Origin: a virus
Length of the DNA stretch: 30,150 bases
IMG/VR virus record: IMGVR_UViG_3300017758_000074
Span: 1 to 30,150 of that record
Direction: 5' to 3' (one strand)
The notes below the pieces were generated by a model, which made no database searches, was not told the origin of the DNA, and saw only the letters and a program-made list of their open reading frames with translations. A program made the position numbers and the translations under genes. This document shows, one piece after another, positions 1,352 through 30,150 of this stretch; the stretch's first letter is position 1, and each line of letters starts with the position of its first letter.

Positions 1352-1379
1352 AGTATAACACAGGATACGGATATGTCAA
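1352..1379 (-). promoter_or_regulatory. Strong sigma70-type promoter for the 223-aa/151-aa operon
   Basis: Read on the minus strand: TTGACA (1379-1374), 16-bp spacer, TATACT (1357-1352), preceded by TGTGT so that it is also an extended -10. Transcription should start near 1345, giving a leader of roughly 30 bases before the ATG at 1317. A tandem TTGGTAAGG pair lies about 7 bp upstream of the -35 box. Confidence 0.8.
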
Positions 1380-3567: not shown

Positions 3568-3688
3568 ACTTTTTATCAAGCACGAATTTACAGGTGTGTT
3601 GTCCTTGACACTTGTTTCTCTCAGTCTTGTCATCACACGTCCAATGACCAAACTTAACCAATCTCAAGTCAAAAAGACTTTGCTTCAT
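3482..3688 (-). CDS. Small Cys/His-containing protein after the tail-tip gene, 68 aa
   Basis: Unknown product. The ATG overlaps the tail-tip stop as TAATG, the same coupling used through the structural operon, which supports it being real. Cys18, Cys27, Cys33 with His15 and His31 could form a small metal site, and the C-terminal half is basic. The last 86 bases are antisense to the 3' end of the 182-aa plus-strand gene, which is unusual and leaves the C-terminus (residues after about 40) less certain. Confidence 0.55.
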   Translation of the reverse strand: MKQSLFDLRLVKFGHWTCDDKTERNKCQGQHTCKFVLDKKFRKVLSVDLRPVRVQVRDPLYVPKRIVF

Positions 3689-13085: not shown

Positions 13086-13093
13086 TATTTATC
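13086..13093 (-). promoter_or_regulatory. T4-late-like promoter GATAAATA before the connector/tail block
   Basis: Seven of eight bases match TATAAATA. It is placed between the capsid terminator (13101-13141) and the connector gene (ATG at 13032), where a new promoter is needed. No sigma70 -35 box is visible upstream. Confidence 0.55.
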
Positions 13094-13100
13094 GGGTCGT

Positions 13101-13141
13101 AAAAAAAGGATGGGCCTATACAATCCATATTAGGCCCACCC
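13101..13141 (-). terminator. Rho-independent terminator after the major capsid gene
   Basis: On the minus strand GGTGGGCCTA ... TAGGCCCATCC forms a strong GC-rich stem of about 9-11 pairs with a short loop region, followed by TTTTTTT. It sits about 20 bases after the capsid stop codon (13163), so the scaffold-capsid message ends here. Confidence 0.92.
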
Positions 13142-13162
13142 TAATGAGCAAAGGTATTACCC

Positions 13163-14032
13163 TTATGCTATTGCTTTAGAACCTTTAACTCTAACTGCAT
13201 AAGCCGCCTTAACTAATTGCGTCTTAACTGCTGTAGAACCAACGTATTCTGTATGTCTCATTGAAGCATCTCTTTGTGATTCAATTCTTAGTGGTCTTTT
13301 GATCACGTGTGCAAATGCTTGTGGAGAAAATACGCAACCTTGTGCATCAGTAGATACTGAGTCAGCCGCGATACCTGTTGAAGAAAAGATCTTCACGTTG
13401 AATAATTTTCCAACGAATGCAGATGAACTTAATAAAGTGTTACCTACATTAGATATTGCGTTCGCTGATGTGCCGTAACCTGCACCTGCTAAAGCAGACG
13501 CAACACCATACGCTTGACCCGGGTGGATCACTGCGTGGTAGTCACCTTCACCATCAGTTGGTGCGTTTTGTTCTCTTAATTTATACACCGCTTGAAGAAT
13601 AAGTGCTGGAGTAATTGTAGTTCCATTGTCACCTACATCATTTGATATATTTGCTTCTGTGAATAATGAAAAAGCATTTGAATCAACTTTCTCACCTATT
13701 GCACTTCCGATCATTTGACCTACATCAGAACCCATATTTCTAATTGTAGATTCCGCAAGTAAATCAGATACGTCGATTCTTGCTTGAACTTCAGCCGCTG
13801 TAACATCAACCTGTGCAACTGTGAAGTTAGTGTCTGAAACTTCAGTTGTTTGGTTTTGTTCTTGAGCCGCTATTTCTGGATATACAGGAATCTGTGCTGT
13901 TAAGCCTGGAGTCCCTGTCATATCGTATGTTGTGAAAACTTTATCCGCAATCATTTTTTCAGATTGTGTGAATACAGCCTCTTGCAACATATTAGTCAAT
14001 AATTGACTGTCGCTTATGTTAGTATTAGCCAT
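13163..14032 (-). CDS. Major capsid protein (HK97 fold), 289 aa
   Basis: The main head shell protein. Elements: N-terminal helical arm without a delta domain or protease site, the E-loop region (YDMTGTPGLTAQIPVYPEIAA, about 35-56), an acidic spine helix (ALILQAVYKLREQNAP), the GDYHAVIHPGQAYGVASAL motif (P-domain, about 160-180), GKLFNVKIFSST (A-domain strand) and a final FSPQAFAHVIKRPLRIES strand. Follows the scaffold gene with an AAGGAG site and ends at a strong terminator, so it should be made in large amounts. No separate head protease is seen. Confidence 0.88.
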   Translation of the reverse strand: MANTNISDSQLLTNMLQEAVFTQSEKMIADKVFTTYDMTGTPGLTAQIPVYPEIAAQEQNQTTEVSDTNFTVAQVDVTAAEVQARIDVSDLLAESTIRNMGSDVGQMIGSAIGEKVDSNAFSLFTEANISNDVGDNGTTITPALILQAVYKLREQNAPTDGEGDYHAVIHPGQAYGVASALAGAGYGTSANAISNVGNTLLSSSAFVGKLFNVKIFSSTGIAADSVSTDAQGCVFSPQAFAHVIKRPLRIESQRDASMRHTEYVGSTAVKTQLVKAAYAVRVKGSKAIA

Positions 14033-14068
14033 TGTGCTAATCTCCTTTGTTGTTAGGAGTTATAATGC

Positions 14069-14785
14069 CTATAATACGTTAGGATAAATCTTTTTCCGCA
14101 TTTGGGAGTATAACTCACGTTGTTTAGGATCATTAAGATCCAACTTGTTTATATCAACATCTGTTTTCACACCCTCGGGAGATTGATTTGATTGGCTTCC
14201 TGAACCGGCTGGTCCCGCCTGAACAAAATGTGGATTATCTTGTAACCACATCTTAACTGCGTTCTCGGTATCCAACGGAGTTCCTGCTTCAGTATATCTT
14301 GTGTTTCCTGTTCTTGGATCTACAATTTCTACTTGACCAGTCTCTGACATCTTAACTTGATCTCTAACAAGTCTTACAACTTGTTCTGGATTAACTGCTT
14401 TGTATTTGCTTGCCGCATTTAGTAAAGCACCATCCACTTTGATCTTCGTCAATTCGTCAGTCAAAGCCGATATTTTTTCACTTGACTTTTCAGCCTGTGT
14501 CTTCAATATCTCTTCAAACTCTCCCTTTCTTTTCTGCTCTTCAAGTTTTCTGTCTTCTTCTTGTTGCATCAAAGAACGGTAGTGATTAACATCAACACCA
14601 TCGTATTGTTTGGCTACACGCTCTTCACCGTGCTTTCTGGCACTCTTCATTGCGTTGTCAAACTGCTCTTTGGTATATACTGGTTGATTATCAGTTCCCT
14701 GCGTTGGATTATTTTTTGAGTCTTCTTGAACTGGTGCAGTAGTCTGTTCAGTATTGACTTCCAATGTTTTATTTGTTTCACTCAT
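14069..14785 (-). CDS. Capsid scaffolding protein, 238 aa
   Basis: Acidic, Gln/Thr/Asn-rich N-terminus; a central charged coiled-coil (about residues 70-125, including EEDRKLEEQKRKGEFEEILK); a conserved DGALLNAASKYKAVNPEQVV segment (about 127-150); and a short basic C-terminus (YSQMRKKIYPNVL) suitable for capsid contact. The place directly before the capsid gene is classic. It would nucleate procapsid assembly and leave the head later. First gene of the capsid unit with the perfect TATAAATA at 14842-14835 upstream and a GGAGG ribosome site. Confidence 0.85.
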   Translation of the reverse strand: MSETNKTLEVNTEQTTAPVQEDSKNNPTQGTDNQPVYTKEQFDNAMKSARKHGEERVAKQYDGVDVNHYRSLMQQEEDRKLEEQKRKGEFEEILKTQAEKSSEKISALTDELTKIKVDGALLNAASKYKAVNPEQVVRLVRDQVKMSETGQVEIVDPRTGNTRYTEAGTPLDTENAVKMWLQDNPHFVQAGPAGSGSQSNQSPEGVKTDVDINKLDLNDPKQRELYSQMRKKIYPNVL

Positions 14786-14808
14786 TGTTGTGTTCCTCCA
14801 TTTGTTTG

Positions 14809-14826
14809 CAACGCTGGATAACGTTG
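14809..14826 (-). other. 5' leader hairpin of the scaffold-capsid message
   Basis: CAACG TTATCCAG CGTTG: a 5-bp stem starting about 9 bases after TATAAATA, in the same relative place as the stems at 13061-13077 and 22051-22060. It may protect the transcript's 5' end. Confidence 0.4.
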
Positions 14827-14834
14827 AATAATGT

Positions 14835-14842
14835 TATTTATA
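14835..14842 (-). promoter_or_regulatory. T4-late-type promoter TATAAATA before scaffold and capsid
   Basis: Exact T4 late consensus on the coding strand, about 50 bases before the scaffold ATG, in the 62-base gap that follows the 162-aa gene. No convincing -35 box upstream. Together with the terminator at 13101-13141 it defines a two-gene high-expression unit. Confidence 0.7.
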
Positions 14843-14847
14843 CCGCA

Positions 14848-15336
14848 CTAATAAAACATACTATCATTAGGGTCAAGGCCCCAAGCATCATAATAATTAG
14901 ATTTTCTAAGTTGTTGTTGTGCATTTTTTAATTTGTTCAAGTTCTGGATCATCAGCAACGGTGCTTTACCATAACTGAAACTGACTCCTTTGTGTTTGCC
15001 TTTGTTGTCAGGATGATCATACAGCATAGCATAATCAGGATTGTTTTCAAAACCCTTTTTGCAGACTGATGATAATTTTTTCTCGTTTATCTTGTAAGGA
15101 AAATATAGGACCACAATATCCAGATGAAAGATACTAAACAAAGAGCAACAATGATCAATCTGAGCCAACACATTCTTCTTCGCCATTGTGATCTGGACTT
15201 TTCTATCTTGTAAAGTTTTTTTTGCATACGGACAGATTGCTTTTCCACTCGCTTTATGAGTTTTAGCAACAACCTGTCCGATCCATTTCTCAATATCTTT
15301 ACTTCCTACGACCACTTTTCTTTTTTTTCTTCGCAC
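14848..15336 (-). CDS. Cys-containing protein, DUF1415-like pattern, 162 aa
   Basis: The core DIEKWIGQVVAKTHKASGK followed by ICPYAKK (Cys35) recalls the DUF1415-type proteins, where a W...V...CPFA motif is typical; later parts include DYAMLYDHPDNKGKHKGVSF and APLLMIQNLNKLKNAQQQLRKS. Function is unknown. The annotated GTG start at 15336 lies in an A-rich stretch in the tail of the previous gene with no good ribosome site, so a frameshift from that gene or a different start is possible. It is between portal-linked small genes and the scaffold gene and so is probably late, perhaps a virion or maturation protein. Confidence 0.6.
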   Translation of the reverse strand: MRRKKRKVVVGSKDIEKWIGQVVAKTHKASGKAICPYAKKTLQDRKVQITMAKKNVLAQIDHCCSLFSIFHLDIVVLYFPYKINEKKLSSVCKKGFENNPDYAMLYDHPDNKGKHKGVSFSYGKAPLLMIQNLNKLKNAQQQLRKSNYYDAWGLDPNDSMFY

Positions 15337-15460
15337 CCATAGGAGATCTTCTTCCAGATGATTTTGGCATCCTTCTTCCGCTTTTCTTTCCTGGCATAAC
15401 TGCCCTCCTCATTGTTGAACCCATAACGGCCTTGCCTGTTGTTGTGTTAAGGCCTGCCAT
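15299..15460 (-). CDS. Very basic peptide, 53 aa
   Basis: The start at 15460 (MAGLNTTTGK) is preferred to an in-frame upstream one at 15520 because it just overlaps the end of the 82-aa gene, as do other starts here. The peptide is rich in Lys/Arg/Ser/Gly with repeats of SGRR (three copies) and a C-terminal KKKKKSGRRK. This protamine-like composition suggests DNA binding or charge neutralisation in the head, but no family is recognised. Confidence 0.6.
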   Translation of the reverse strand: MAGLNTTTGKAVMGSTMRRAVMPGKKSGRRMPKSSGRRSPMGAKKKKKSGRRK

Positions 15461-15695
15461 TGATAGGTTGTTTTCCTTCGTTTTTTGATGGAGCATACAA
15501 CTCCAACAATTCCATTCCACGATAGTGTGCTGTCTTCTTAATGTTGATCAATGCCTTACGAGCCTTCTCAGCATAACGTCTGCTGGGTCTCTCCATAAGT
15601 TTCTCCATTGCTGAAAAGTATTCCATACATTGGACTTTTAGTTGCTCGTGTCTGGCTGACTCAACTGGTGTTCTGTAAATCTTTGCGATGCCCAT
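15447..15695 (-). CDS. Small helical protein, 82 aa
   Basis: Not recognised. Predicted as one helical hairpin from composition (ARHEQLKVQCMEYFSAMEKL, then RRYAEKARKALINIKK), basic overall. The ATG overlaps the preceding stop as TAATG. It is part of the small-protein cluster between portal and scaffold genes. Confidence 0.7.
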   Translation of the reverse strand: MGIAKIYRTPVESARHEQLKVQCMEYFSAMEKLMERPSRRYAEKARKALINIKKTAHYRGMELLELYAPSKNEGKQPINGRP

Positions 15696-15931
15696 TAATC
15701 TAAACCTTCAGGTTTTACAGGTGTGAAAGGTATTGAATGCCACGGTGCGGTGTTACCGTGTGAGTTCTTGTATGTCTCACCTGTCTGGACTGATTGTGCC
15801 CCCATAAATGTTCTCGTGCCATTGCCATATCTCTTCTTCTGTATCACCTTACAAGGTCTCCACTCTTGACCTTTCGCATAGAACTTTGAATGATGAGTCT
15901 GCGTGCCTTTGCGTGTTTTTATACCTGCCAT
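15695..15931 (-). CDS. Small basic protein, 78 aa
   Basis: Unknown. It is basic in its first half (KTRKGTQTHHSKFYAKGQEW) with Gly/Asn-rich second half. Starts 6 bases after the stop of the preceding gene. A component of the same portal-linked cluster, possibly virion-associated. Confidence 0.7.
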   Translation of the reverse strand: MAGIKTRKGTQTHHSKFYAKGQEWRPCKVIQKKRYGNGTRTFMGAQSVQTGETYKNSHGNTAPWHSIPFTPVKPEGLD

Positions 15932-15937
15932 CTAAAT

Positions 15938-16201
15938 CTACCTCCACGCTCTTATACTCCAATATGCCGGTGATAAACTCTTCTGACCTCGGACTGCTTT
16001 TAGGATTGGTTTGAATCTTGCCATAAAGGATTTTTTCCTTGCTGGTATATTCTTCTTGATGGTCATACCTTGCTGACCAAATCTTACTATATTGACTTTA
16101 CCTGATTTTTGATTACGAACATACACGGCACTTTTCTTTGATCCGCTTGGTGTTCTGAATGGTTTATTGAGTGTTACTTTCCGTCCCTGATACGTCGCCA
16201 T
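15938..16201 (-). CDS. Small basic protein of a widespread phage family, 87 aa
   Basis: The ATG at 16201 is chosen over the one at 16213 since GGAGGTG lies 5 bases before it. The patterns GRKVTLNKPFRTPSGSKKSAVYV, KVNIVRFGQQGM, IKKNIPARKKSFMARF and the C-terminal YWSIRAW match, in my recollection, a family of small phage proteins (xVxFGxxxMxIKKxxPxRxKSFxARxxC...YWSxRxW). The usual ARHxCD element near residue 65 has been lost here. Role is not established. It overlaps the portal gene's end by 38 bases. Confidence 0.68.
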   Translation of the reverse strand: MATYQGRKVTLNKPFRTPSGSKKSAVYVRNQKSGKVNIVRFGQQGMTIKKNIPARKKSFMARFKPILKAVRGQKSLSPAYWSIRAWR

Positions 16202-17744
16202 TGGCACCTCCATTAAAAAATGTTTTTATTTCTGGATGTAACTCCATAATCTGTTCATCCGTATAACCTTGTGAAACCATTTCTCTCATATGTTTGATCA
16301 TTGCATCTGGTGAAGTCATTGGTGGATGTGTCATTCCTGTTTGTGGTGCTGGTTGATTTAATTTGTCAATAAGTTCTTGTCTGGCATCGTCGTCAGTCTC
16401 TACTATATCAACAATCTTCTCATCAATAATTTGTTTGATGGCAGGATCCTCTGGTTTTGTGTCTGCCGCTTTCTTCAATATATCCATTTCATAACTTCTG
16501 TCTCTGATGTTGAATATAGTTGGATATTTCACTTCTCCATCCCAATTGATGTTTTGGAATTGACCAAACAATCTAAAGATGTGTTCTTCAGCAAGTTGTA
16601 AGTTCTTTGCCTTGTCAATTAATTTTGTATCTAATTGAAGCATCTCAGTTTGTAAAGCAATACCACTCATTGATCTTTGTTCTATCGCTCTAACAGATCC
16701 TAAGTGTCCCATTCTGTCAATTGCTTTAACTTTGTTTTCAATAGATGAAAGAATCATATCAATTGATTGACCACTTGGTTGTAGGAGTTGTGGTCTAAGT
16801 CCAGGATCAAGTTCATTAGGCATTGTTATGATTGAACCTGCTCCAGCACCTGCTTCTGTGTCAATAGTTTTTACAAGTGTAGGATGTCCTGATATTCTGA
16901 TCGTTTGCTCTATCTCAGACAGTTCATTGTAAATTGCATTCTGCATATCCGCTATGTCGTTTATGTCTGACACACCAATACCTCTTGTTGGTGATCTGCC
17001 AGCATACACGAATACCGCTGGAACTTTGCCCAAAGGATTAGGCATATCTTCCATTAATCTTAATTTTTCTTTTTTGTCAGGATTGTATTCTTCTACATAC
17101 ACTCTATCTTTTGTGAATGTTCTAAGATAGTATTTTGTTGTCTGTTGGTATGCTCTCTGTTCTTGTTCAAACAATCTAACAAAACTTAATTCGTATAATC
17201 CATTAGGTAGTCTTTCAAACTCCCAGTCTAATATGTTTGGTGGAGTGTAAATTGAAACGTAAGGTCTTAGACCTTGTTGTAATTCTTCGGCTCTTGTGCC
17301 TGCTTGTGTGTTAGGCTTATCTACTAAAATTAATGAATGTCCGTAGATGCTTGACTGGATATTGACATCTCTCATAAACTGATTGAAATCTCTGCCTTCA
17401 AGGTCAGCATCTTTAAGGAATGCTTCTACCTCAGGCATACCTTCCATATTGCCAAACATTCTTTTAGGATCATTTCTAAACAGGAAACTGTTATAAATGT
17501 GAATTATTGATTTACAATGATTATCTAAAGGTGTCTGTGCTATTCTGCCAACATACTCAGATGAGTTCTCCATCACATACTTGGTTAGATAATTTCCCAT
17601 TCTGTAATGGGCACCACCGCTGTATGATCTTTCTAAGAAGTTCCATCTGTTGATGTAATTCACATACTCGTCGTGTAAAGGAATACCATCAAAGTTTGGA
17701 GTCCCGTAATTTGTCATTGTGTTGGTTAAACTATAATCTGCCAT
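16164..17744 (-). CDS. Portal protein, 526 aa
   Basis: The dodecameric channel through which DNA is packaged and ejected. Size, position right after the large terminase and conserved segments support it: HDEYVNYINRWNFLERSYSGG near the start, an IYGHSLILVDKP strand-turn (about 132-144), the PPNILDWEFER element, FVYAGRSPTRGIGVSDINDIADMQN stem entry (about 246-270), and the RAIEQRSMSGIALQTE helix (about 353-368). The pattern is nearest to DUF4055/SPP1 gp6-like portals. The C-terminal tail is Pro/Met-rich (TGMTHPPMTSPDAMI). Start overlaps the terminase end by 14 bases. Confidence 0.9.
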   Translation of the reverse strand: MADYSLTNTMTNYGTPNFDGIPLHDEYVNYINRWNFLERSYSGGAHYRMGNYLTKYVMENSSEYVGRIAQTPLDNHCKSIIHIYNSFLFRNDPKRMFGNMEGMPEVEAFLKDADLEGRDFNQFMRDVNIQSSIYGHSLILVDKPNTQAGTRAEELQQGLRPYVSIYTPPNILDWEFERLPNGLYELSFVRLFEQEQRAYQQTTKYYLRTFTKDRVYVEEYNPDKKEKLRLMEDMPNPLGKVPAVFVYAGRSPTRGIGVSDINDIADMQNAIYNELSEIEQTIRISGHPTLVKTIDTEAGAGAGSIITMPNELDPGLRPQLLQPSGQSIDMILSSIENKVKAIDRMGHLGSVRAIEQRSMSGIALQTEMLQLDTKLIDKAKNLQLAEEHIFRLFGQFQNINWDGEVKYPTIFNIRDRSYEMDILKKAADTKPEDPAIKQIIDEKIVDIVETDDDARQELIDKLNQPAPQTGMTHPPMTSPDAMIKHMREMVSQGYTDEQIMELHPEIKTFFNGGANGDVSGTESNTQ

Positions 17745-18984
17745 TCATCACTCCTGTTTGAAAATTGAATCTTTGTGGTTCTACTTGTTCTCTGTTCTTG
17801 ACTATTGGATAAAGAAAACTTATCAAATATCCTAAACTGTCGTTTAAATGATCCCATCCTTCATCCTTTGTCGGCAAGTTTGTTCCTGCTTTGTATGTGT
17901 GTCTTATTAAACTATTTATTGAGTTCTTTGCTTTAGGGTCTATTATAACCCCTCTAATGCCCAAGGCATTACACAACTTACTATTGACACAATTGATCCT
18001 GTCTCTGATACTCATATGTCTGCTTGGCATCTTAACAATGAAGCCTGCGTTCTGAAGTATAGAAGCATCCGTCCTTCTTGCTGAACTGGTTCGTCTTTGC
18101 CTTGCGGCAGGATCAGGATATGCAAATATTTTTTTACCAGGATACCTTCTGTGGATCTCTTCAGCCAGTTCATCTGTGTTTGAACTCCATATCTGTATTT
18201 CATCAAACACATAAACGATATCATTCCTGATGTAAGACACTGACGCACTCATAGGATTCAAGTTGAAGTCTATGCCTATGTGTAGTGCTGTGATGTCCTC
18301 TGGTATTTCAACGTTTTTAACATTGTGCTTGATGTCAAAGCCATAATATATGATTCCTGAATATGTCTCAAATGTTGCTTCGTATTCTTGCCTAAATGTT
18401 TTAGCATCTAAATCTTTCTTTGCTTGTTCTATCTCAGCATCTGGAACCCATCCACCATCTATGGTAGTGAATTGCCAACTCTGCCAATTCTCATCAGTGG
18501 TCTTTTGTCCCTGTTGATATAGGTCGTGGAACCAATTCAACCCACGTGGTGTTCCTGTGAAGAAAACGTGTCCACCCGTGTCTGATAATGTTGGACGTAG
18601 AACTTCGTGCCAAGCATACTCGTCTATGTCAGCCGCTTCGTCAATTACCAAATAATCAAGTCCAACTCCACGCAGTGACTGGGGATTGTCCGCACCTCGC
18701 AAACATATCCTTGAACCATTACGTAGGAATATTGTAAGTTCTGCTTCGTTGATTTTTCTGATCCAGTTCAGATCATTCAATACTTTTTTGATTTGCAACC
18801 ATACCGTTTGTTTTGCTTGTCTGTATGATGGTGCCACATACCAACACAGTTTCTCAGGATTCCTTGCGAAATAACAAAGTTGTCTGATAGCAAGTGTGGT
18901 CTTGCCAAATCTTCTTCCTGTAACTAAAACTTTGAATCGTGCTGGATGTTCAGCAACTCTTTTCTGCGGTGCAGATAATTTCAT
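17731..18984 (-). CDS. terL: Terminase large subunit, 417 aa
   Basis: DNA packaging ATPase and headful or cos nuclease. Visible motifs: Walker A GRRFGKT (23-29), Walker B YLVIDE (111-116), coupling motif FTGTP (142-146), nuclease Asp239 in HIGIDFNLNP, VFDEIQ (259-264) and Asp291 in YPDPA. The order and spacing are those of a complete terminase of about normal, slightly short length. The ATG overlaps the small subunit stop (TAATG). The nuclease and ATPase motifs all appear intact. Confidence 0.96.
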   Translation of the reverse strand: MKLSAPQKRVAEHPARFKVLVTGRRFGKTTLAIRQLCYFARNPEKLCWYVAPSYRQAKQTVWLQIKKVLNDLNWIRKINEAELTIFLRNGSRICLRGADNPQSLRGVGLDYLVIDEAADIDEYAWHEVLRPTLSDTGGHVFFTGTPRGLNWFHDLYQQGQKTTDENWQSWQFTTIDGGWVPDAEIEQAKKDLDAKTFRQEYEATFETYSGIIYYGFDIKHNVKNVEIPEDITALHIGIDFNLNPMSASVSYIRNDIVYVFDEIQIWSSNTDELAEEIHRRYPGKKIFAYPDPAARQRRTSSARRTDASILQNAGFIVKMPSRHMSIRDRINCVNSKLCNALGIRGVIIDPKAKNSINSLIRHTYKAGTNLPTKDEGWDHLNDSLGYLISFLYPIVKNREQVEPQRFNFQTGVMNGRL

Positions 18985-19295
18985 TAGGCATCTTCAGGCC
19001 AAGGTAAAGGATCATTGTTCTCAGTCTCGCTTGGTGAATCTTGTTGTCCAAGATACTGCTTGGCTAAGAAGATCAACATTCTAACGTCTTTGTCTTTGGT
19101 TGCCTTAGAATACTGAGCACGTCTTATACCCATCTTTCCTTCTGCTCTGCCTCTCTCGATAATGTCTGTGTAACGTTTCTTTAGATTATCAACGCTGGTG
19201 TTAAGAACCATAGCAATCTCTTCATAGGAACACATTATAGAAGCAAGTCGCTCTATCATATCCTTGTCTAATTTGTATGTTCTTGCCTTAGCCAT
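18984..19295 (-). CDS. terS: Terminase small subunit-like protein, 103 aa
   Basis: Contains a helix-turn-helix (about residues 17-42, SYEEIAMVLNTSVDNLKKRY) followed by the EGKMGIRRAQYSKATKDKDVRMLIFLAKQYLGQQD stretch (split about 52-87), which is typical of small terminase proteins and related DNA-recognition proteins. It is directly upstream of the large subunit and coupled to it. It selects genome DNA for packaging. Confidence 0.82.
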   Translation of the reverse strand: MAKARTYKLDKDMIERLASIMCSYEEIAMVLNTSVDNLKKRYTDIIERGRAEGKMGIRRAQYSKATKDKDVRMLIFLAKQYLGQQDSPSETENNDPLPWPEDA

Positions 19296-19642
19296 TATAA
19301 AGTCTTCTCCCTTATAATTACTCTGAAACTTCTTGCGTCTGTGTCACCTTGTTGTGTGACTATCGTAATTTTGATTGTATAAACATTTTGCACACTACCA
19401 CCTGATACCCTTACATTTACTAAATTGCCTCCTGTGATATTAACATCTGCTATTGCACTTGTCGGTAATTGTAATGGAGCGGCATCACCAGTCACTGTGC
19501 TGATTGCCACAGTTGCTGATGTTATAGTATCTCCCGCGGCCAAGTAATCTGTAAAATCTAAACCGTATTGAATATTTGATGCTGGGTCCTTCGTAGCGAA
19601 GAGTCCATCTCGATCACTTCTAAATCCTGTCAAGTTCGCCAT
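19295..19642 (-). CDS. Fibre-tail adaptor-like protein, 115 aa
   Basis: The beta-rich pattern with DPASNIQYGLDFTDYLAAGDTITSATVAIS-type start (cut to residues about 18-48) and VYTIKITIVTQQGDTDARSFRVIIREK at the end resembles the phage fibre-tail adaptor family, whose members join fibre proteins to the tail. It is next to the 625-aa structural protein and fibre genes. Coupled by TAATG on both sides. Confidence 0.7.
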   Translation of the reverse strand: MANLTGFRSDRDGLFATKDPASNIQYGLDFTDYLAAGDTITSATVAISTVTGDAAPLQLPTSAIADVNITGGNLVNVRVSGGSVQNVYTIKITIVTQQGDTDARSFRVIIREKTL

Positions 19643-21519: not shown

Positions 21520-21536
21520 TAGACACCTCCCTAATA

Positions 21537-22031
21537 TTAAGCAAGACTAATCGATAAATTGCCAGAACTGATTGTAAATTGGTCTCCTGATGAAACCGTT
21601 TTTGAAGTTGTTAATGCACCGTAAAACAAAACGTTACCACTTGTTGACGCATCCATCAATGCCAGGTGAGTTACAACTTGTCCAGTTGAACCTGCTGTCT
21701 GATAGTTTGCTGTCGCTACTGGGAATGATACCGTCTGATTTGAACTTATCGTTCCTGTAGTTGAAGCACCTGCGTTTGCAAATGTGATTGTTTGTCTTGC
21801 ATATGAACCATTATTAATTTCGTAGTATCCGAATTTTGATGTTGCGTCTGTTCCTGAAGTGTTTGACTCCAGTGTTGCCGCTACACCTGATCCTGAATCT
21901 GCGAATAATGCCACATAAACGGTTGCTGGTGGAGTATAACCTCTACCTGAACCAACTGTCAAAGAACCGTTCCCAAAATTAAGAACGTGATCTAATAATT
22001 TGTCTTCTAAATAATTTGAAGCCGCACTCAT
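21537..22031 (-). CDS. Phage tail fibre-type protein, 164 aa
   Basis: Matches in style the widespread small fibre family with an S-x-YLED-x-LLDHVL start, ATVYVALFADS, YARQTITFA, VTHLALMDASTSGNVLFYGALT and a DQFTISSGNLSISLA end. These are trimeric or particle-surface proteins of unknown receptor. It is the first gene after a perfect TATAAATA promoter (22066-22073), so it heads its own message through adaptor and terminase genes or further. Confidence 0.78.
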   Translation of the reverse strand: MSAASNYLEDKLLDHVLNFGNGSLTVGSGRGYTPPATVYVALFADSGSGVAATLESNTSGTDATSKFGYYEINNGSYARQTITFANAGASTTGTISSNQTVSFPVATANYQTAGSTGQVVTHLALMDASTSGNVLFYGALTTSKTVSSGDQFTISSGNLSISLA

Positions 22032-22050
22032 TATTGTTTCTCCTTTGTTT

Positions 22051-22060
22051 GTAATATTAC
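22051..22060 (-). other. Leader palindrome GTAATATTAC
   Basis: A 10-base perfect palindrome just after the TATAAATA at 22066. It can form only a small stem in RNA, but matches the position of the stems after the other late-type promoters. It may be coincidental in AT-rich DNA. Confidence 0.3.
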
Positions 22061-22065
22061 GTTAG

Positions 22066-22073
22066 TATTTATA
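22066..22073 (-). promoter_or_regulatory. T4-late-type promoter TATAAATA before the 164-aa fibre gene
   Basis: Exact consensus on the coding strand followed by CTAACG, 35 bases before the ATG. It sits in the 63-base gap after the 58-aa gene. Confidence 0.7.
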
Positions 22074-22094
22074 TGAAGCCTATGTATCAAGCCT

Positions 22095-22271
22095 TTAACT
22101 TCCCATTTGTGCTATCTTTTGAGCAAATGCCTTAAGACTAAAAGGAACAGCATCTCTTTCTTCCATATGGGAGTTTTTTATCTGCTCGAATAAGTCGTTT
22201 TTTTCTACAAAATTAGTTTCTTCTTCGTCAAAGGTTGTCAAACCTTTTTCAAACACACACCATTTATCCAT
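22095..22271 (-). CDS. Small acidic hypothetical protein, 58 aa
   Basis: ORF starting MDKWCVFEKGLTTFDEEETN and ending FAQKIAQMGS. The ATG overlaps the TAA of the 60-aa gene (ATGGATAA), the same coupling used by its neighbours, and it fills an otherwise unexplained gap. It is acidic and helical. Not recognised; probably a fibre accessory or chaperone by context. Confidence 0.75.
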   Translation of the reverse strand: MDKWCVFEKGLTTFDEEETNFVEKNDLFEQIKNSHMEERDAVPFSLKAFAQKIAQMGS

Positions 22272-22446
22272 TGAAACTTGTCCCTACTGATGGAGTCGTC
22301 CAACTGCCATCTATCTGTTCTTCAATTGAAAAACTATGATTTAATGGATCACCTGTTGGTGCTTTGTCTTTTGCCCACGTGACCATTGCCGCTTGGCTGT
22401 CAAATTCATACCACTTGCTGTCGTCTTGCCAGTATATTCTCCACAT
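22264..22446 (-). CDS. Small protein next to LamG gene, 60 aa
   Basis: Not recognised. It is aromatic-rich (MWRIYWQDDSKWYEFDSQ start) and looks like a small beta domain. The ATG overlaps the stop of the LamG-like gene as TAATG. It may be a small receptor-side component, assembly factor or a truncated fibre module. Confidence 0.7.
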   Translation of the reverse strand: MWRIYWQDDSKWYEFDSQAAMVTWAKDKAPTGDPLNHSFSIEEQIDGSWTTPSVGTSFNG

Positions 22447-23336
22447 TAGTAACTATCTCCTGATCCTGGTCCTTCTGTTGTTGGTATAACCACAACATCA
22501 CCAGAACCTTTAGTGACCTTGCTTGGTGTTACTGATGACAGGCTACCACCATTCACCAATGTCGTTGCCGAATGATAAAGGTATAATTCTGGTTGATCGG
22601 CTCCACCTGCTGTGCCATCTGTGCCTCCATCAACATAACCATCAGTCAATGCTGAATTATAATATTTTGCCCTAACACTTGAACTGGAGAAATCTATGTG
22701 AGTATCATAGAACCATATTGGTCCAAAATCGAACTCGGCACCTCTCTCCCAGGCCGCATTATAACCTGTTGCGGTTCCACTCGATCCTTGATATCCTAAA
22801 TTAATATTTTGTATGCCATCCATATCACCATCTGATGTAAAATTACTGCCTGAATTTATAATTGCTGGTTGAACATCTTCACCATCTATATACAAAGGTC
22901 TATTGGTGTTATCTGTTGGATCCATTGCGAACATAACACAATGCCAACTACCATCTAAAAAATTACTTGCAAAATTGGTCGTGTTATATTTTGTATTGCC
23001 ACAACCACTTGTTGTTGGAGCAGGGTTTTGACTCCCATTAAAGAAGTTAATGTTAAAACTATTACCGAATATAGACCACGAACCACCACCACTATCACCA
23101 CCATTGATGAATCTCATTGCCCTTACACCTGGACTATCTAATTGACTGGTGCCATTGATCCTGACCCACGCAACAAAACTGAATCTATGATTGTTAGCAA
23201 ACCCACCATTTACCGGTATGTTGTATGTGGCCTTGTTAGCCGCATTAACAGCCTGTCCGTCATTGAACGCTCTCGCGGCACTTCCTCCGGCCGCTCCTGC
23301 TGTGGTTAAAATTGATTTAGCAAATCCTAATGGCAT
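22446..23336 (-). CDS. LamG/concanavalin-like fibre or decoration protein, 296 aa
   Basis: The segments FSFVAWVRINGT (about 52-63), SWHCVMFAMDPTD followed by RPLYIDGE (about 124-152) and FDFGPIWFYDT (about 203-213) are the usual order of a LamG/laminin-G or concanavalin jelly-roll (strand with W, H/V-x-x-x-x-D, Y-I-D-G). Such domains bind sugars on the host surface. An AGGAGGAG ribosome site lies in the short gap after the upstream fibre gene. Confidence 0.75.
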   Translation of the reverse strand: MPLGFAKSILTTAGAAGGSAARAFNDGQAVNAANKATYNIPVNGGFANNHRFSFVAWVRINGTSQLDSPGVRAMRFINGGDSGGGSWSIFGNSFNINFFNGSQNPAPTTSGCGNTKYNTTNFASNFLDGSWHCVMFAMDPTDNTNRPLYIDGEDVQPAIINSGSNFTSDGDMDGIQNINLGYQGSSGTATGYNAAWERGAEFDFGPIWFYDTHIDFSSSSVRAKYYNSALTDGYVDGGTDGTAGGADQPELYLYHSATTLVNGGSLSSVTPSKVTKGSGDVVVIPTTEGPGSGDSY

Positions 23337-23347
23337 CTATCTCCTCC

Positions 23348-24901
23348 TTATGCGAATGCTTTTGCTATGTTACCTATATAATCTGTTCCATCATAGAACA
23401 CCGTAACAACATCAATGGCATTTGCCCCTGTTGATAAAGTTGGAGCACCACCGGCAAACTTGACAGCGGTTGAATCACCAGTCCCAAAACTTGCAGTTCT
23501 GCTACCAGTGCCATCTTGTTTGATTTTTATAGTCACCGTCTGACCAGCGATTAGACCACTGATAACAAATTGAGTATTCGTAGCCAATGTCACTGTATGG
23601 AATGGTGCCAATGTTGTATCAACGGTAATCGTTGAACTTGATGTTAATGAATTTATTTTTTCACTGTATGCTTCTAACTTTCCTATTCTTAATAGGTCTG
23701 TAAGATCTTCTTGATAGAAACTATAAGTTGATCCGGCTGGATTCTGTGTATTATTGTTTGCGTAGAAATGATACATATTGCCTGTTACCGTAGCATCAGT
23801 TCCTATATCACCCATTGAATAAAAACCTATGAAGTTATCTACTGCTACCGTGCCTGATCCATCTTCTGAATTTTCTAAATATGAAGCAACACCAGTAGCA
23901 TCTGTGATCGTGATATTTTGATTGTTACCATAAACCAGCACACCACTCATATTTGCTGATACCGTTCCCAATGTTGAAGCACCTGAACCATTGTTCTCAA
24001 CGGTTGTATTGATGTCTGCCCCCATTGGACCTCTGCTTCTGAATGTGGCAGATGTTGATGTTGAACTTGAACCGTTTAGATCTATAGATGTATAAATTGC
24101 CTGTCTAAATCTATCATTTGAATTGGATGATGATTGACCTGATGCTAATTTGTAATAAGAAATCATAGCATTTTTATAATGCCTGTTGCCATCACCTATC
24201 GTCAATGATAGGTCTTCTTTGTAAATTATGTTTCCATCAGAATATCTTGAATTACTATTATAATTTTCTGCGAAGTTACCACCTCCACCTACTAACTGAA
24301 CCCTACCTGTTCCATTTGCTGATATCATAAGATCATCATTTGATCTTGAAGATTGTATAACGTTATCTGTGATACTCACAGCGTCGTTGGATATAGATCC
24401 TGTTGCAGTTACGTTTGTAGTTGCCGTAATGGCTCCTGTCACTGCCAATGTTGAACCATCAAATGTTAATCCTGATTCAGCATCTAATTCTGTTGTTGTT
24501 GAACCCACGGTAACAATTTCATTTGCAGTAGCATTATTCAATGCTGTCACTGCCGGTGTGGCCCCTGTGATTGTTAAAACATCACCACTTACTGCCGTCG
24601 TCACCGTTCCGGCACCAGCAACTTTGAAAGTTTCATCTATATTGACCAAAGTCCCTGAACTATCGTCACCTACAAATGTTATACCACCTGCGGCTGAATC
24701 TGCCGCTAATTCAAATCTTGCGTTACTGCTATTATATTTTAAAATCTGATTGTTAGACGGTGATGATATGTTGAACATATCAATAATAGCATTTTGATTG
24801 TCTATGTTTTGTTTTGCATCTGCACGAAATAATCTTGGTGAGTCTGATCCAGAATCACAGTTTGCCGTCGATGCTTTAGTTGAACTTGGCCAGGTTGCCA
24901 T
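23348..24901 (-). CDS. Tail fibre protein A, 517 aa
   Basis: Thr/Ser/Ala/Asn-rich beta protein with the fibre motif STLAVTGAITATT and the DNVIQSSRSNDDLMISANGTG block, and a conserved C-terminus (SSSTITVD through IGNIAKAFA) shared with fibre B. It likely forms a trimeric fibre ending in a knob. I use the ATG at 24901 (AAGGAG 8 bases upstream) rather than the TTG at 24907. Confidence 0.82.
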   Translation of the reverse strand: MATWPSSTKASTANCDSGSDSPRLFRADAKQNIDNQNAIIDMFNISSPSNNQILKYNSSNARFELAADSAAGGITFVGDDSSGTLVNIDETFKVAGAGTVTTAVSGDVLTITGATPAVTALNNATANEIVTVGSTTTELDAESGLTFDGSTLAVTGAITATTNVTATGSISNDAVSITDNVIQSSRSNDDLMISANGTGRVQLVGGGGNFAENYNSNSRYSDGNIIYKEDLSLTIGDGNRHYKNAMISYYKLASGQSSSNSNDRFRQAIYTSIDLNGSSSTSTSATFRSRGPMGADINTTVENNGSGASTLGTVSANMSGVLVYGNNQNITITDATGVASYLENSEDGSGTVAVDNFIGFYSMGDIGTDATVTGNMYHFYANNNTQNPAGSTYSFYQEDLTDLLRIGKLEAYSEKINSLTSSSTITVDTTLAPFHTVTLATNTQFVISGLIAGQTVTIKIKQDGTGSRTASFGTGDSTAVKFAGGAPTLSTGANAIDVVTVFYDGTDYIGNIAKAFA

Positions 24902-24943
24902 TAGCAATTCTCCTTGTTTATGTTATATTTAACGAATCTTGTG

Positions 24944-26293
24944 TTAAGCATATGCTTTAGCAATATTTCCAAAGAAACTTGATCCGTTGTTAAAAATTGT
25001 TACGATGTCTATGGCACTTGCCGCCGTTGATAGTGTTGGTGTGCCACCTGCGAACTTGACAGCAGTTGAACCATCTGTTCCAAAACTTGCTGTCCTTGAA
25101 CCTGTGCCATCCTGCGTTATGATCAATGTAACACTTTGACCAGTCGCTAAATTAGAAATTACAAATTGCGTGTTGGTTGCCAATGTAACATTAAACACTG
25201 GACACTGATTACAATCTACCGTTATGGTTGATGAACTTGATAAACTTTTTACTTCTTCTCTGTAATTTTCTAAAGTTCCTACTCTTGATTGATATGAATC
25301 ATCATTCGTATAGATCAAATACTTGTTCGTAGCAACACTACCTGAATCCATAAAGAAACCATATTCTGTCGTCACTGTTTCTGTGCCGGCTCCAGTGGTA
25401 TCTGCTGGCTGTGATCTGAAATGTTTAAGATCTGATACCTGGACGGTATGATTAGAATCTGCTGACTGTATGAAAGGCACTGATACATAGGTATTCAGTG
25501 CTTCTAAAGTTATGTTACCAGCATTTGAAGTGTCAGAATAGATATAAGGTTCAGCAAAAATTCCATTTGCATTTCCTATCGTCACATCAGTGGTGCTTGT
25601 GTTATCTATTTCTACAACATTATAATTTGCTACTGGTCCTCTATAGATACCTGTGCTTGTTAGACTTGATCCATTAGCATCAATGTGCATTATATCACCC
25701 TGTCTAAATCTTGAATTACTCTGTGCTGAATTGGTTCCATTAAATGTGTATTTTGTTATCCTATTATTTCCATATCTTCTTAAACTGCTTGAATTCATAG
25801 CATTAGGATCAATCGTGCCACCATCGTGGACAATATTGACTCCGTGGTTCCATCTTGCGTTGCTTGAAAAATCCGTTATTCTGTCTTTGATACCTATAGA
25901 ACCTGTGCCACTTACTTCTAAAAATAGATCATCATTACTTCTTGTGCCTTTTATAACATTATCATCTATTGATATTGCATCATTGGCTATTGAAGTTGTT
26001 GCCGTCATCGCACCTGTGACTGCCAATGTTGATCCATCAAATGTTAAATTGGATTCTGCGTCTAACTGCGTTGTGGTTGATGCCACTGTGACTAATTCAT
26101 TTGCTGTTGCATTATTGATCGTCGTGCCACCAGCACTTGTGTTGTATGCTAAACTATTCCAGGCTGTTGAACCATCACCTACCTTGAACTTGGTAGTGTC
26201 TGATTCATATCCAAATTCTCCTGCCGCTAAAGTTGGATTGGCTGATGACCAATCTGATGCTGTGTCTCTTCTAAATTGTATTTGTGTTGGCAC
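24944..26293 (-). CDS. Tail fibre protein B, 449 aa
   Basis: N-terminus QIQFRRDTASDW...NPTLAAGEFGYESDTTKFKVGDGS (split) is the attachment-type domain seen in many phage fibre proteins. The middle and C-terminal parts are paralogous to fibre A: STLAVTGAMTATTS, DNVIKGTRSNDDLFLEVSG and an about 95-residue end (SSSTITVDCNQCPVFNVTL to GNIAKAYA). Starts at GTG at 26293, overlapping the stop of the preceding fibre gene (TAGTG). Confidence 0.82.
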   Translation of the reverse strand: MPTQIQFRRDTASDWSSANPTLAAGEFGYESDTTKFKVGDGSTAWNSLAYNTSAGGTTINNATANELVTVASTTTQLDAESNLTFDGSTLAVTGAMTATTSIANDAISIDDNVIKGTRSNDDLFLEVSGTGSIGIKDRITDFSSNARWNHGVNIVHDGGTIDPNAMNSSSLRRYGNNRITKYTFNGTNSAQSNSRFRQGDIMHIDANGSSLTSTGIYRGPVANYNVVEIDNTSTTDVTIGNANGIFAEPYIYSDTSNAGNITLEALNTYVSVPFIQSADSNHTVQVSDLKHFRSQPADTTGAGTETVTTEYGFFMDSGSVATNKYLIYTNDDSYQSRVGTLENYREEVKSLSSSSTITVDCNQCPVFNVTLATNTQFVISNLATGQSVTLIITQDGTGSRTASFGTDGSTAVKFAGGTPTLSTAASAIDIVTIFNNGSSFFGNIAKAYA

Positions 26294-27123
26294 TATGCTG
26301 TTCCTCCGTCTATGGCCGTTATTGCTCCGTATGTGGATACGGCTGTTCCCCCATCAATATTTATTGTCCCAACAGAAGCAAAGGATAATACACCTGAACC
26401 GTTGGTAACTATGACCTGTCCATTAGTGCCATCTGCTATCGGTAAGTTGTAGGCATTACAAATCTCAACTGCTCCTGAACCGGCTGGTGTTAAATGGATT
26501 GGTTCATTAGTTCTTGCCGTTGATATTCTGTTGTCATTGATTATGAAACCTCCAGTGGAATCACCTCCCACACCAACGTGTAATTCACAATTAAGTGATA
26601 TCACATTCGCGTTAAGATGCATAGCACCTCCCGGAGCGGTTAAATTCATACCTGATGAATCACTTGATATGGTGGTTCCTGATATCGTTAAATCTCCTGT
26701 GCTCGCACTACCACCTGTTGAAGCAAATGTTATAGTGTCTGATCCAGCATTCGTGGTTATAGTCATATTTGAACCTGCCACTAATGTTAGACCATCTGAC
26801 GTTCCGTCCGCTACTACATCACTCTGTCCTGCAACGGATATGGTTTTGAAAACATCTTGGTCTGCTGTGGTGTTGATTGTGACTGAACCATCTGAATTAG
26901 TTGATGTTGTGCAGTTTGTCCCACCTTGTATGTAAAGGGTATCACCTGCTTTGATATCTATCGTTGAACTATCGTCTGCGACAATTCCGATCGACTGATC
27001 ACGCAGTTCTAAAAAATTAGAATCTATCTCGCTTCCTATCAAACCCGAATTTTTGGGTAATTGATCACTTGCTGTTGTTGGTGAAGATAAACTTCTTGTG
27101 GTAAGCGTTGCTCTTTTTGGCAT
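26293..27123 (-). CDS. Tail fibre protein C, 276 aa
   Basis: Starts with an NSGLIGSEIDSNFLEL motif (about 25-40), resembling fibre N-termini of the form G-x-E-I-D-x-N-F-x-x-L. Later NRISTARTNEPIHLTPAGSGAVEI and LPIADGTNGQVIVTNGSGVLSF are shared with fibre families. It ends with two IDGGTA pieces. It is the most upstream fibre gene and likely the first gene of the late structural block, after AGTAAATACTAC and a GGAGAAGG ribosome site. Confidence 0.78.
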   Translation of the reverse strand: MPKRATLTTRSLSSPTTASDQLPKNSGLIGSEIDSNFLELRDQSIGIVADDSSTIDIKAGDTLYIQGGTNCTTSTNSDGSVTINTTADQDVFKTISVAGQSDVVADGTSDGLTLVAGSNMTITTNAGSDTITFASTGGSASTGDLTISGTTISSDSSGMNLTAPGGAMHLNANVISLNCELHVGVGGDSTGGFIINDNRISTARTNEPIHLTPAGSGAVEICNAYNLPIADGTNGQVIVTNGSGVLSFASVGTINIDGGTAVSTYGAITAIDGGTA

Positions 27124-27135
27124 TCCTTCTCCTGA

Positions 27136-27153
27136 ATAATAGTAGTATTTACT
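27136..27153 (-). promoter_or_regulatory. TATAAATA-like element before fibre C
   Basis: AGTAAATA (27153-27146) matches the late box at 6 of 8 positions. It continues into ATACTACTATTAT (27148-27136), a 13-bp sequence found also at 2819-2807 before the 220-aa gene. It overlaps the stop codon of the 62-aa gene. Confidence 0.4.
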
Positions 27154-27337
27154 TTGATTTTAAGAATCTGTCGTATAACTCCCAATATTCGTCTCTTAAT
27201 CTGATACGTCTATGTTCTTCAAAGTGTTCAAAGCCATACACACCGTAATAGATGTCAGTTATCAATTCAAAATCATCCAATTCCTTTACAGGCTTTGGAG
27301 GTCTTGGTGGTGGTGGGAATTTTATTATCTTAGCCAA
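27149..27337 (-). CDS. Proline-rich small protein, 62 aa
   Basis: The best start is the TTG at 27337 (AGGA 9 bases upstream, overlapping the stop of the 135-aa gene), because the frame upstream of it is only a shadow of the 135-aa gene. The protein begins with a basic helix and FPPPPRPPKPVKEL, then ELITDIYYGVYGFEHFEEHRRIRLRDEYWELYD. Not recognised; the Pro-rich stretch could bind a partner protein. Confidence 0.6.
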   Translation of the reverse strand: MAKIIKFPPPPRPPKPVKELDDFELITDIYYGVYGFEHFEEHRRIRLRDEYWELYDRFLKSK

Positions 27338-27737
27338 TGGTGAAAAGATCCTGTGGATTGGTTCTCTTACGCAATTTGCTTTTGTCAGTGTCTGGATCAA
27401 CGATGTCCAAAATGTTTATTGGTGAATCTTCAACATCCGCATCAATCAAACCTGTTTTGGCATTCTTGTATGTGTAACCATTAGGAAACTCCAATAAAAT
27501 GTTGCAGGGTCTATGTTTTACGAATTGTTCTATAACTTCTTGCCACTTGTTTTGGTTGTTGTTTGTTGGATCCACGTAAGTGTATTCATCAAACTCCTTG
27601 TCGTCTTTGACTGTTTTAAATCTAAGTTCAGCGATCCTATGTCCATATGCTTTCCTTGGATTGTGTGGATTTTGTTGTGCTATCCTTGTCGTGATTGATT
27701 CTAATAATGTTGTGTTTGCTATATCTTTATGTTCCAT
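27330..27737 (-). CDS. Hypothetical early protein, 135 aa
   Basis: Unknown. Acidic/charged and soluble, with a helix-rich centre (QNKWQEVIEQFVKHRPCNILLEF) and an unstructured-looking acidic end (DIVDPDTDKSKLRKR). It lies under a consensus sigma70 promoter (27782-27810), with AAAGGA before its ATG. Could be a regulator or an inhibitor of host functions; no signature supports a specific role. Confidence 0.78.
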   Translation of the reverse strand: MEHKDIANTTLLESITTRIAQQNPHNPRKAYGHRIAELRFKTVKDDKEFDEYTYVDPTNNNQNKWQEVIEQFVKHRPCNILLEFPNGYTYKNAKTGLIDADVEDSPINILDIVDPDTDKSKLRKRTNPQDLFTIG

Positions 27738-27772
27738 ATGATTCCTTTTGTAAAAAATATTTTTCTATTTTT

Positions 27773-28129
27773 CTATTCTTTATTATACGTTATATTGGGC
27801 ATTGTGTCAATCGTCCTTGTCTGACCTCTACGATGGTAATAGTGTCTCCTCATATTACCACGTCTCTGTCGCACCTCAACGTTGGCACGATGCCAACCTT
27901 TACCAATTTCAATAAAGGTAATGATGTAGTCTTCGCTCCTTTTACCACGTTTCCTCCACAGTTCCAGGGGCCACAGTTCATACCAGTCGTCTAATGTCAA
28001 TGACCATTCCTCTCCACGGAATCTTGCCTGGCATCTTGATCTCAAGAATGCCAATCTCCTTGCCCTCAGTTCCTTGTCGGGACCTGATTTCCAAAGGTGT
28101 GGTCTGTGTGGTTTGTAATTCTGTTTCAT
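27773..28129 (-). CDS. Basic phage protein of the T4-like environmental type, 118 aa
   Basis: The pattern LAFLRSRCQARFRGEEWSLTLDDWYELWPLELWRKRGK (split across about 28-63) recalls a family of small phage proteins I associate with T4-like cyanophage and pelagic myovirus genomes (xxSRxQAxFRGExWxLTxxDWxELWxxxxWxxRGR). Function is unknown; high Arg/Lys content points to nucleic-acid binding. The ATG overlaps the TGA of the 38-aa gene (ATGA). It belongs to a two-gene operon under the TATAAATA at 28319. Confidence 0.7.
   Translation of the reverse strand: MKQNYKPHRPHLWKSGPDKELRARRLAFLRSRCQARFRGEEWSLTLDDWYELWPLELWRKRGKRSEDYIITFIEIGKGWHRANVEVRQRRGNMRRHYYHRRGQTRTIDTMPNITYNKE
27782..27810 (-). promoter_or_regulatory. 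Consensus sigma70 promoter inside the end of the 118-aa gene
   Basis: Minus strand TTGACA (27810-27805), 17-bp spacer, TATAAT (27787-27782). It is identical to the sigma70 consensus and drives the 135-aa and 62-aa genes. It overlaps the last codons of the preceding gene. Confidence 0.85.
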
Positions 28130-28242
28130 TTGTAGATGAAAGGATCTTTCTTTTTAAGATCACGAATTTTTTTCCTGAACTTGATCTCGTCGGCTACTCT
28201 GTGATATGGCCAAGTTATGAATTCCCATATTTTTTTGAACAT
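28126..28242 (-). CDS. 38-aa peptide ending DPFIYK
   Basis: The ATG has AAGGAG 7 bases upstream and the stop overlaps the next ATG (ATGA), so it is a real small gene. It encodes MFKKIWEFITWPYHRVADE followed by a Lys/Arg helix and ends KKDPFIYK. I associate the pattern of a short amphipathic N-terminus and a DPFIYK-like end with small genes of T4-like marine phages; this is a recollection, not a search result. It lacks cysteines and is probably a single helix. Confidence 0.75.
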   Translation of the reverse strand: MFKKIWEFITWPYHRVADEIKFRKKIRDLKKKDPFIYK

Positions 28243-28318
28243 TGTGTTTCTCCTTGTGGTAGCGAAGCCAGCCTGTCTTAATCATATGGAGCACGTTAGG
28301 ATCGGCTGACTTCAAATG

Positions 28319-28326
28319 TATTTATA
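28319..28326 (-). promoter_or_regulatory. T4-late-type promoter TATAAATA before the 38-aa/118-aa operon
   Basis: Exact consensus on the coding strand, ending two bases before the stop-adjacent position of the lipoprotein gene (stop 28329-28331) and 77 bases before the 38-aa ATG. A long-range stem (GTCAGCC pairing with GGCTGGC, one G-T) can form in the leader. Confidence 0.62.
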
Positions 28327-28508: not shown

Positions 28509-28537
28509 ATATTAACACAATGGATACTATGTGTCAA
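28509..28537 (-). promoter_or_regulatory. Sigma70-type promoter for the lipoprotein
   Basis: Minus strand TTGACA (28537-28532), 17-bp spacer, TAATAT (28514-28509) preceded by TGTGT. Transcription should start near 28502, within a few bases of the in-frame ATG at 28499. Confidence 0.78.
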
Positions 28538-29519: not shown

Positions 29520-29548
29520 ATTATAGCACAAGATTGGTGTGCCGTCAA
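29520..29548 (-). promoter_or_regulatory. Strong promoter with inverted repeat filling the spacer
   Basis: Minus strand TTGACG (29548-29543), 17-bp spacer, TATAAT (29525-29520), with TGC before the -10. The spacer reads GCACACCAATCTTGTGC, so its ends form a 5-bp inverted repeat (GCACA/TGTGC) that exactly fills the gap. This looks like a built-in operator for the 29498 operon. Confidence 0.82.
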
Positions 29549-30006: not shown

Positions 30007-30035
30007 ATTATAACACAATAGACGGATCAAAGCAA
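30007..30035 (-). promoter_or_regulatory. Promoter reading into the 38-aa ORF
   Basis: Minus strand TTGCTT (30035-30030), 17-bp spacer, TATAAT (30012-30007), preceded by TGTGT. The -10 is perfect and extended; the -35 matches only at TTG. It overlaps the first bases of the terminal repeat. Downstream lie a 38-codon ORF and a terminator. Confidence 0.68.
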
Positions 30036-30150
30036 CCTTAATATTGTCTCCAATCTGGCCATACGGTTGGTAAGGTTTGGTTCTGGCTTGATAGAATGGT
30101 TTGGTAAAGAATGATTAGAGCGGTGCATCTCCAAGTAGTATGTTGATACC
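30028..30150. repeat. Terminal direct repeat, copy 2
   Basis: Exact copy of 1-123. See the entry at 1-123 for the interpretation. It includes the -35 box of the promoter at 30007-30035 and the TTGGTAAG copies. Confidence 0.95.

Follow-up and report, generated by a model that had tools for sequence, protein, structure and literature searches.

Which factor reads late promoters of the T4 type in a small siphovirus-like genome in which no late sigma factor is recognised? This question is raised by the IMG/VR virus record IMGVR_UViG_3300017758_000074, whose positions 1 to 30,150 are analysed here as the window (the whole stretch of DNA, 30,150 nt). The original prediction, made from the letters alone, placed the late box TATAAATA at 14842-14835, 22073-22066 and 28326-28319 and the variant GATAAATA at 13093-13086, and left two options, an unrecognised sigma factor of the phage itself or the sigma factor of another phage. 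It was found that the boxes are real and under selection, and the second option is favoured: with a probability of about 60%, the window is the genome of a virion-encoding satellite siphophage, which would rely on the gp55 system and on the replication of a co-infecting T4-like phage. The predicted coordinates are exact, and all four boxes lie on the minus strand, the coding strand for nearly all genes of the window. A fifth box, AGTAAATA at 27153-27146, had been overlooked; it stands 30 nt upstream of the tail-fibre gene, whose start is at 27123. The boxes are:

28319..28326, minus strand: late box TATAAATA, exact match, before the HNH-endonuclease gene 28129-27773
27146..27153, minus strand: late box variant AGTAAATA, before the tail-fibre gene 27123-26293
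22066..22073, minus strand: late box TATAAATA, before the head-protein gene 22031-21537
14835..14842, minus strand: late box TATAAATA, before the scaffold gene 14785-14069
13086..13093, minus strand: late box GATAAATA, before the connector/tail operon, first gene 13032-12580

A search of the window returned no further exact TATAAATA on the minus strand and none on the plus strand, as had been noted by eye. The earlier chance expectation of two to three copies per strand was too high, the computed value being 1.9 TATAAATA for both strands together. Given this expectation, the raw count of three is unremarkable on its own, and it was reached in 31 of 100 shuffles. The unusual part is the intergenic placement, as had been argued: gaps make up 7.2% of the window, and dinucleotide shuffling confined to them gave 0.14 expected TATAAATA versus 3 observed, a number reached in 0 of 2000 shuffles, and 0.74 expected [AG]TAAATA versus 6 observed. 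As a motif, TATAAATA was only partly adequate: the box itself stands, while NATAAATA is the consensus over the family, and GTAAATA and CTAAATA occur as variants. The sequence AATAAATA occurs at 17920-17913 and 26365-26358, both inside genes, and the first copy, which encodes an INS stretch of the large terminase subunit (TerL), is unlikely to be a promoter.

Relatives of the window were gathered through the portal protein (33), TerL (80 loci) and the scaffold protein (80 loci). For the upstream counts, near-identical upstream sequences were removed, contigs were limited to at most 64.5% AT, and [AG]TAAATA was sought 15-100 nt before the gene start. In these non-redundant contigs the box is present before the head-protein gene in 31 of 34, before the scaffold gene in 53 of 61, and before the connector gene that follows the terminator in 35 of 48, compared with 0-9% for eight other structural genes of the same operons, including those for the major capsid protein, portal and TerL (2/49, 4/58, 2/58, 1/61, 0/37, 0/42, 2/23 and 0/19). 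Most scaffold genes without [AG]TAAATA have CTAAATA at the matching place, and no antisense box occurs in any of the compared upstream stretches. When orthologues were aligned at their starts, NATAAATA (GTAAATA in some distant ones) was seen before the head-protein, scaffold and connector genes at only 31-49% protein identity. The original prediction had proposed a look upstream of the same genes in related genomes, and for three late genes the motif is conserved there. The boxes are retained in genomes spanning 48-64% AT. Before the tail-fibre gene, relatives carry ATAAATA or GTAAATA, and relative G001 has TATAAATA at the position matching 28326-28319, between an 83% identical upstream gene and the HNH gene. 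The connector box is preceded by one further signal, and this order of hairpin and then box recurs in several relatives:

13101..13141, minus strand: strong intrinsic terminator GGGTGGGCC...GGCCCATCC followed by T7, read in the sequence, located after the major capsid gene and ahead of the next late box

Selection is also evident in the depletion of stray boxes, which was computed over 15 genomes of 26-32 kb with the expectation taken from synonymous-codon shuffling. The antisense box TATTTAT is found 0 times in plus-oriented coding sequence versus 39.2 expected; of the 42 7-mers that share its composition it is depleted most, and it alone stands at zero. The sense box is found in coding sequence 21 times versus 58 expected, with another 61 copies outside coding sequence. 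Such depletion is as expected if some polymerase in the infected cell truly starts at the box. The box is not depleted in the cultured relative HTVC111P (31.6 kb). Rows without strand bias number 16 of the 65 in a TerL tree; they include HTVC111P and together make up one side of a single branch (support 89/77), and each of the remaining rows has no more than one antisense box. The genome of HTVC111P encodes a DnaD-like protein, a helix-turn-helix (HTH) regulator and a lysozyme, so that, at least in this one cultured member, the absence of late boxes and the presence of replication genes go together.

At T4 late promoters, transcription requires gp55 and begins about 12 nt downstream of the box. 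Such a promoter consists of a TATA box of 8 bp, located one turn before the start, with AT-rich sequence behind it and an unconserved -35 region (PMC2988020), and NATAAATA is known to serve T4-like cyanophages as their late box (PMC2984593). In the window and its relatives, the 8-bp box TATAAATA/NATAAATA is likewise placed before late (virion) genes. A -35 element is missing from the logo built on 123 non-redundant coding-strand sites, in which the positions -26 to -24, counted from the box, show no more than a weak preference for A/T. Conserved before late genes in distant relatives, free of a -35 element and purged from coding sequence, the boxes behave like the T4-type late promoters they had been taken for. 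Another promoter type is represented by four sigma-70-type sites, which are consensus matches only; the total number of such matches equals the shuffled mean:

29520..29548, minus strand: TTGACG-17-TATAAT (11/12), before the early gene 29498-29091
28509..28537, minus strand: TTGACA-17-TAATAT (10/12), before the small lipoprotein-like gene 28499-28329
27782..27810, minus strand: TTGACA-17-TATAAT (12/12), before the gene 27737-27330
1352..1379, minus strand: TTGACA-16-TATACT (11/12), before the gene 1317-646

In the record the sequence is given as linear and lacking end repeats, yet its first and last 123 bases are identical:

1..123, no strand assigned: direct terminal repeat, copy 1, identical to 30028-30150
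30028..30150, no strand assigned: direct terminal repeat, copy 2, identical to 1-123

The junction of the ends is crossed by an independent contig from another sample (1600 bp, 99.94%), and the genome, a circle of 30,027 bp, is complete in the window. End repeats occur in five relatives as well, and their lengths, 96-127 bp, are likely explained by the k-mer size of the assembly; the relative DSL-LC06 (OR003941) was deposited as circular, and all seven circular genomes measure 29.8-32.0 kb. The longest related contig among the matches listed has 32,038 bp. The end repeats, the spanning contig and the sizes of the relatives together indicate that the missing genes are not simply off the contig, and a fragment with its sigma gene beyond the contig is ruled out by the 123-bp repeat and the junction-spanning contig.

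No gp55-like protein had been visible at first reading, and the profile search which had been advised agrees, as the gp55 family phrog_234 is absent from 45 records, the complete window genome included, at E values up to 10. Sigma70_r2 gave no match in 20 records, and DnaB_C none in 12 IMG/VR family genomes or in DSL-LC06. PHROG and Pfam scans of the window proteins returned families of head, packaging and tail; replication, sigma, polymerase and integrase families did not turn up. Among the families listed for the relatives, none belongs to replication beyond one borderline AAA match (E 7e-4). Queries with the polymerase, clamp, loader, helicase, primase, UvsX, gp46/47 and gp55 of T4 and of the T4-like pelagimyophage HTVC008M produced only two chance hits in 15 genomes; as a positive control, the T4 queries readily recover their HTVC008M counterparts. 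Neither gp55 nor clamp, polymerase or helicase was detected in the window genome and its six circular relatives. Families found in at least six of the seven circular genomes are all virion, packaging, HNH or acetyltransferase-like, and a glycosyltransferase-like protein is present in five of them. For 13 relatives, the accessory proteins gave matches to methyltransferases, acetyltransferases, glycosyltransferases, HNH and GIY-YIG nucleases and S-adenosylmethionine (AdoMet) decarboxylase, among others, part of this family list being the 25 commonest of 118 families and 25 of 32. The genes of the window which bear on the argument are:

27773..28129, minus strand: HNH endonuclease-like protein, 118 amino acids, family in 12 of 15 genomes, annotated as PacI-like in the relative DSL-LC06
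21537..22031, minus strand: head protein, phrog_240
18984..19295, minus strand: probable small terminase subunit with HTH, directly before TerL, family in 15 of 15 genomes, helical model with HTH
17731..18984, minus strand: large terminase subunit, phrog_2, E 2e-51
16164..17744, minus strand: portal protein, phrog_145, E 9e-67
14069..14785, minus strand: head scaffolding protein, phrog_206, E 6e-13
13163..14032, minus strand: major capsid protein, phrog_544
8634..10670, minus strand: tape measure protein, phrog_3336, E 1e-53
3688..6498, minus strand: central tail fibre J-like protein, phrog_5616 and phrog_31
2127..2789, minus strand: conserved early protein of about 220 amino acids, function not assigned, nine related loci, low-confidence model

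Some neighbouring genes deserve mention in their own right. The only clear plus-strand gene, 3019-3567, encodes 182 amino acids, is found in 10 of 15 genomes and by eye resembles a small glycosyl- or sialyltransferase. Between portal and scaffold lies a phrog_7595 gene for 91 amino acids (15938-16213, minus strand), which is common to HTVC008M, pelagiphages and roseophages. The 56-amino-acid lipoprotein-like product of 28329-28499 (minus strand) has a signal peptide and an LTVTAC box, is 83% identical in G001, and may be an exclusion protein or resemble a spanin. Among the genes of the window, none was recognised as a lysis gene.

From its gene content, the phage is predicted to make its own heads, tails and terminase, with a replication and late-transcription machinery that is not recognisable. 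Since both the reader of its late signal and recognisable DNA-copying genes are missing, it probably needs co-infection of its host cell by a phage of the T4 type. Of the two options left by the original prediction, the sigma factor of another phage is preferred: the motif is family-wide and its reader should be family-wide as well, no such non-virion gene is visible, and replication genes go unrecognised even in complete genomes. We infer that the gp55 of the helper would be what reads the boxes. The sequence of events could be as follows. The small phage would enter a cell infected by a T4-like phage, and its early genes would be transcribed from host sigma-70-type promoters. Its DNA would be copied by the helper replisome. 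The late boxes would be opened by RNA polymerase that the helper has modified and that carries gp55 and gp33, once the clamp gp45, loaded through replication, has activated it, so that the virion operons would start at about five T4-type late boxes (NATAAATA, without -35). The small phage would then package its own genome into its own particles. Because T4 late transcription is coupled to replication through the clamp (PMC2988020), use of the box would tie the virion genes of the satellite to the late stage of the helper.

Several points weigh against this reading. Both the helper and the co-infection are hypothetical, and gene sharing with T4-like phages is sparse. The 91-amino-acid gene shared with HTVC008M is no proof of a T4-like helper, as it also occurs in ordinary pelagiphage siphoviruses, and the T4-like DSL-LC03, from the lake of DSL-LC06, shares almost nothing specific. 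The paper on DSL-LC06 states that replication genes occur in all its seven genomes (PMC10611076), despite which the deposited record has no replication gene annotated. The signature of T followed by a purine at the predicted +1 is no stronger outside than inside coding sequence, and since it is equally common at in-gene sites it was not counted as evidence. About ten early proteins of the window have no family match, and a homology search may miss a novel initiator or a very diverged sigma factor; one of the early proteins, that of about 220 amino acids, is conserved in nine related loci.

These early proteins give room to the rival which survives best, in which the small phage is autonomous, with a late sigma factor of its own that went unrecognised and reads the boxes, and with its own replication initiator. 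The 220-amino-acid protein is 63-100% identical over the nine loci, with an invariant KLDLF and an acidic-hydrophobic C-terminus, IDDYL/IDDVL, which faintly recalls clamp-binding tails; its structure model has a mean predicted local distance difference test score (pLDDT) of 63, and a fold search returned no match. HTVC111P, of similar size, is annotated for replication with little beyond its DnaD-like protein. However, the motif is family-wide, and no non-virion gene is equally widespread. The most widespread DNA-binding protein is the probable small terminase subunit, whose weak resemblance to Sigma70_r4 covers the HTH only, whose fold search gave nothing significant, and which is also carried by the pelagiphage relatives without box bias. 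The remaining Sigma70_r4-like hits, in proteins of G031-G035, are HTH parts of unrelated proteins, each in single genomes. An own sigma factor is considered unlikely, at roughly the level of a serious minority option.

It is less probable still that an alternative sigma factor of the host reads the boxes while the phage, otherwise autonomous, uses host replication proteins. The strong sigma-70-type matches before early genes suggest use of the host polymerase, and a host may have an unusual sigma factor. Yet the sequence of the box agrees with that of the T4 late box, and it has no -35 element, in contrast to what is found with common host sigma factors. The boxes are kept from 48 to 64% AT, presumably over different hosts, and the pelagiphage relatives are a single TerL clade without box bias. 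With regard to hosts, the only scaffold match in bacterial genomes is the 28-kb contig L130, binned in a Porticoccaceae metagenome-assembled genome; besides its scaffold-gene relative it has four boxes on the coding strand, and it is a possible host hint only, unusable as proof that Porticoccaceae are the host. Finally, an accidental origin of TATAAATA in AT-rich gaps, for which the window count of three within the range of shuffled counts could be cited, is rejected with near certainty by the gap-only shuffles, the conservation at 31-49% protein identity and the depletion in coding sequence.

If the satellite reading is right, its reach may be wide. At least 447 scaffold-matching stretches are present in IMG/VR, and we lean slightly towards a large, unnoticed aquatic family of virion-encoding satellites of unrelated siphophage descent, which would have converged on T4-like late promoters and would make particles only when the replication-coupled late programme of a helper runs. 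T4-like phages, among the commonest viruses in water, would then host abundant particle-building parasites that tap the gp55 system, and DSL-LC06 and many other 30-kb "phages" listed as autonomous would not be so. The presence of NATAAATA without gp55 and without a replisome would provide a signature for satellite viruses in metagenomes, and nature would have supplied a test of how late transcription is coupled to replication on a foreign genome. Even if reading by a helper fails, an unknown factor that reads the T4 late box in such phages would be new. Two T4-like cyanophages, DSL-LC02 and DSL-LC03, were assembled complete from the lake of DSL-LC06.

Compared with known systems, the promoters resemble those of T4 (PMC2988020) and the cyanomyoviruses (NATAAATA; PMC2984593) in the 8-bp box, the lack of -35, the AT-rich segment downstream and the position before virion genes. 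However, gp55 is encoded by every T4-related genome sequenced by 2010 (PMC2988020), and the window is a siphophage in which gp55, the clamp gp45, the polymerase gp43 and other T4-type replisome proteins are not detected, homology being poorly suited to gp33. HTVC111P, HTVC026P, HTVC112P and HTVC202P, of about 32 kb, have related TerL (about 50%), scaffold and connector proteins, but HTVC111P has neither box strand bias nor depletion, its recorded host is SAR11, and its DnaD-like replication protein, HTH regulator and lysozyme set it apart, the first and last of these being absent from the family matches of the window genome. DSL-LC06 (29.8 kb) is a member of the window's family with boxes before the same genes, although it was described as an ordinary uncultured phage, the boxes and the missing replication genes going unmentioned in the consulted passages of its paper (PMC10611076). 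Capsid-forming phage-inducible chromosomal islands (PICIs) share the possession of own capsid and packaging genes and, as PICIs, need a helper, but they are reported to take the tails of that helper (PMC10690885), whereas the window has a full set of tail genes and no integrase was found in it. A literature search for T4-type late promoters in satellites or siphoviruses returned nothing relevant, and their borrowing appears to be new. MiniFlayer and MulchRoom are satellite viruses of Streptomyces phages which encode capsids and lack key replication genes (PMC10690885). Their helpers, actinophages of cluster BE, are known by isolation, whereas the likeness drawn here is one of gene content, with a helper that is inferred; borrowed T4-type late promoters are unreported in them, the word "promoter" being absent from PMC10690885. 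Like the window, they encode terminase, portal, scaffold, major capsid protein and an HNH nuclease with key replication genes missing, and MiniFlayer is apparently non-integrating (PMC10690885), comparable to a window genome without an integrase match. With its own capsid and packaging proteins, as in satellites of the MiniFlayer type, the window phage has in MiniFlayer and MulchRoom its closest precedent.

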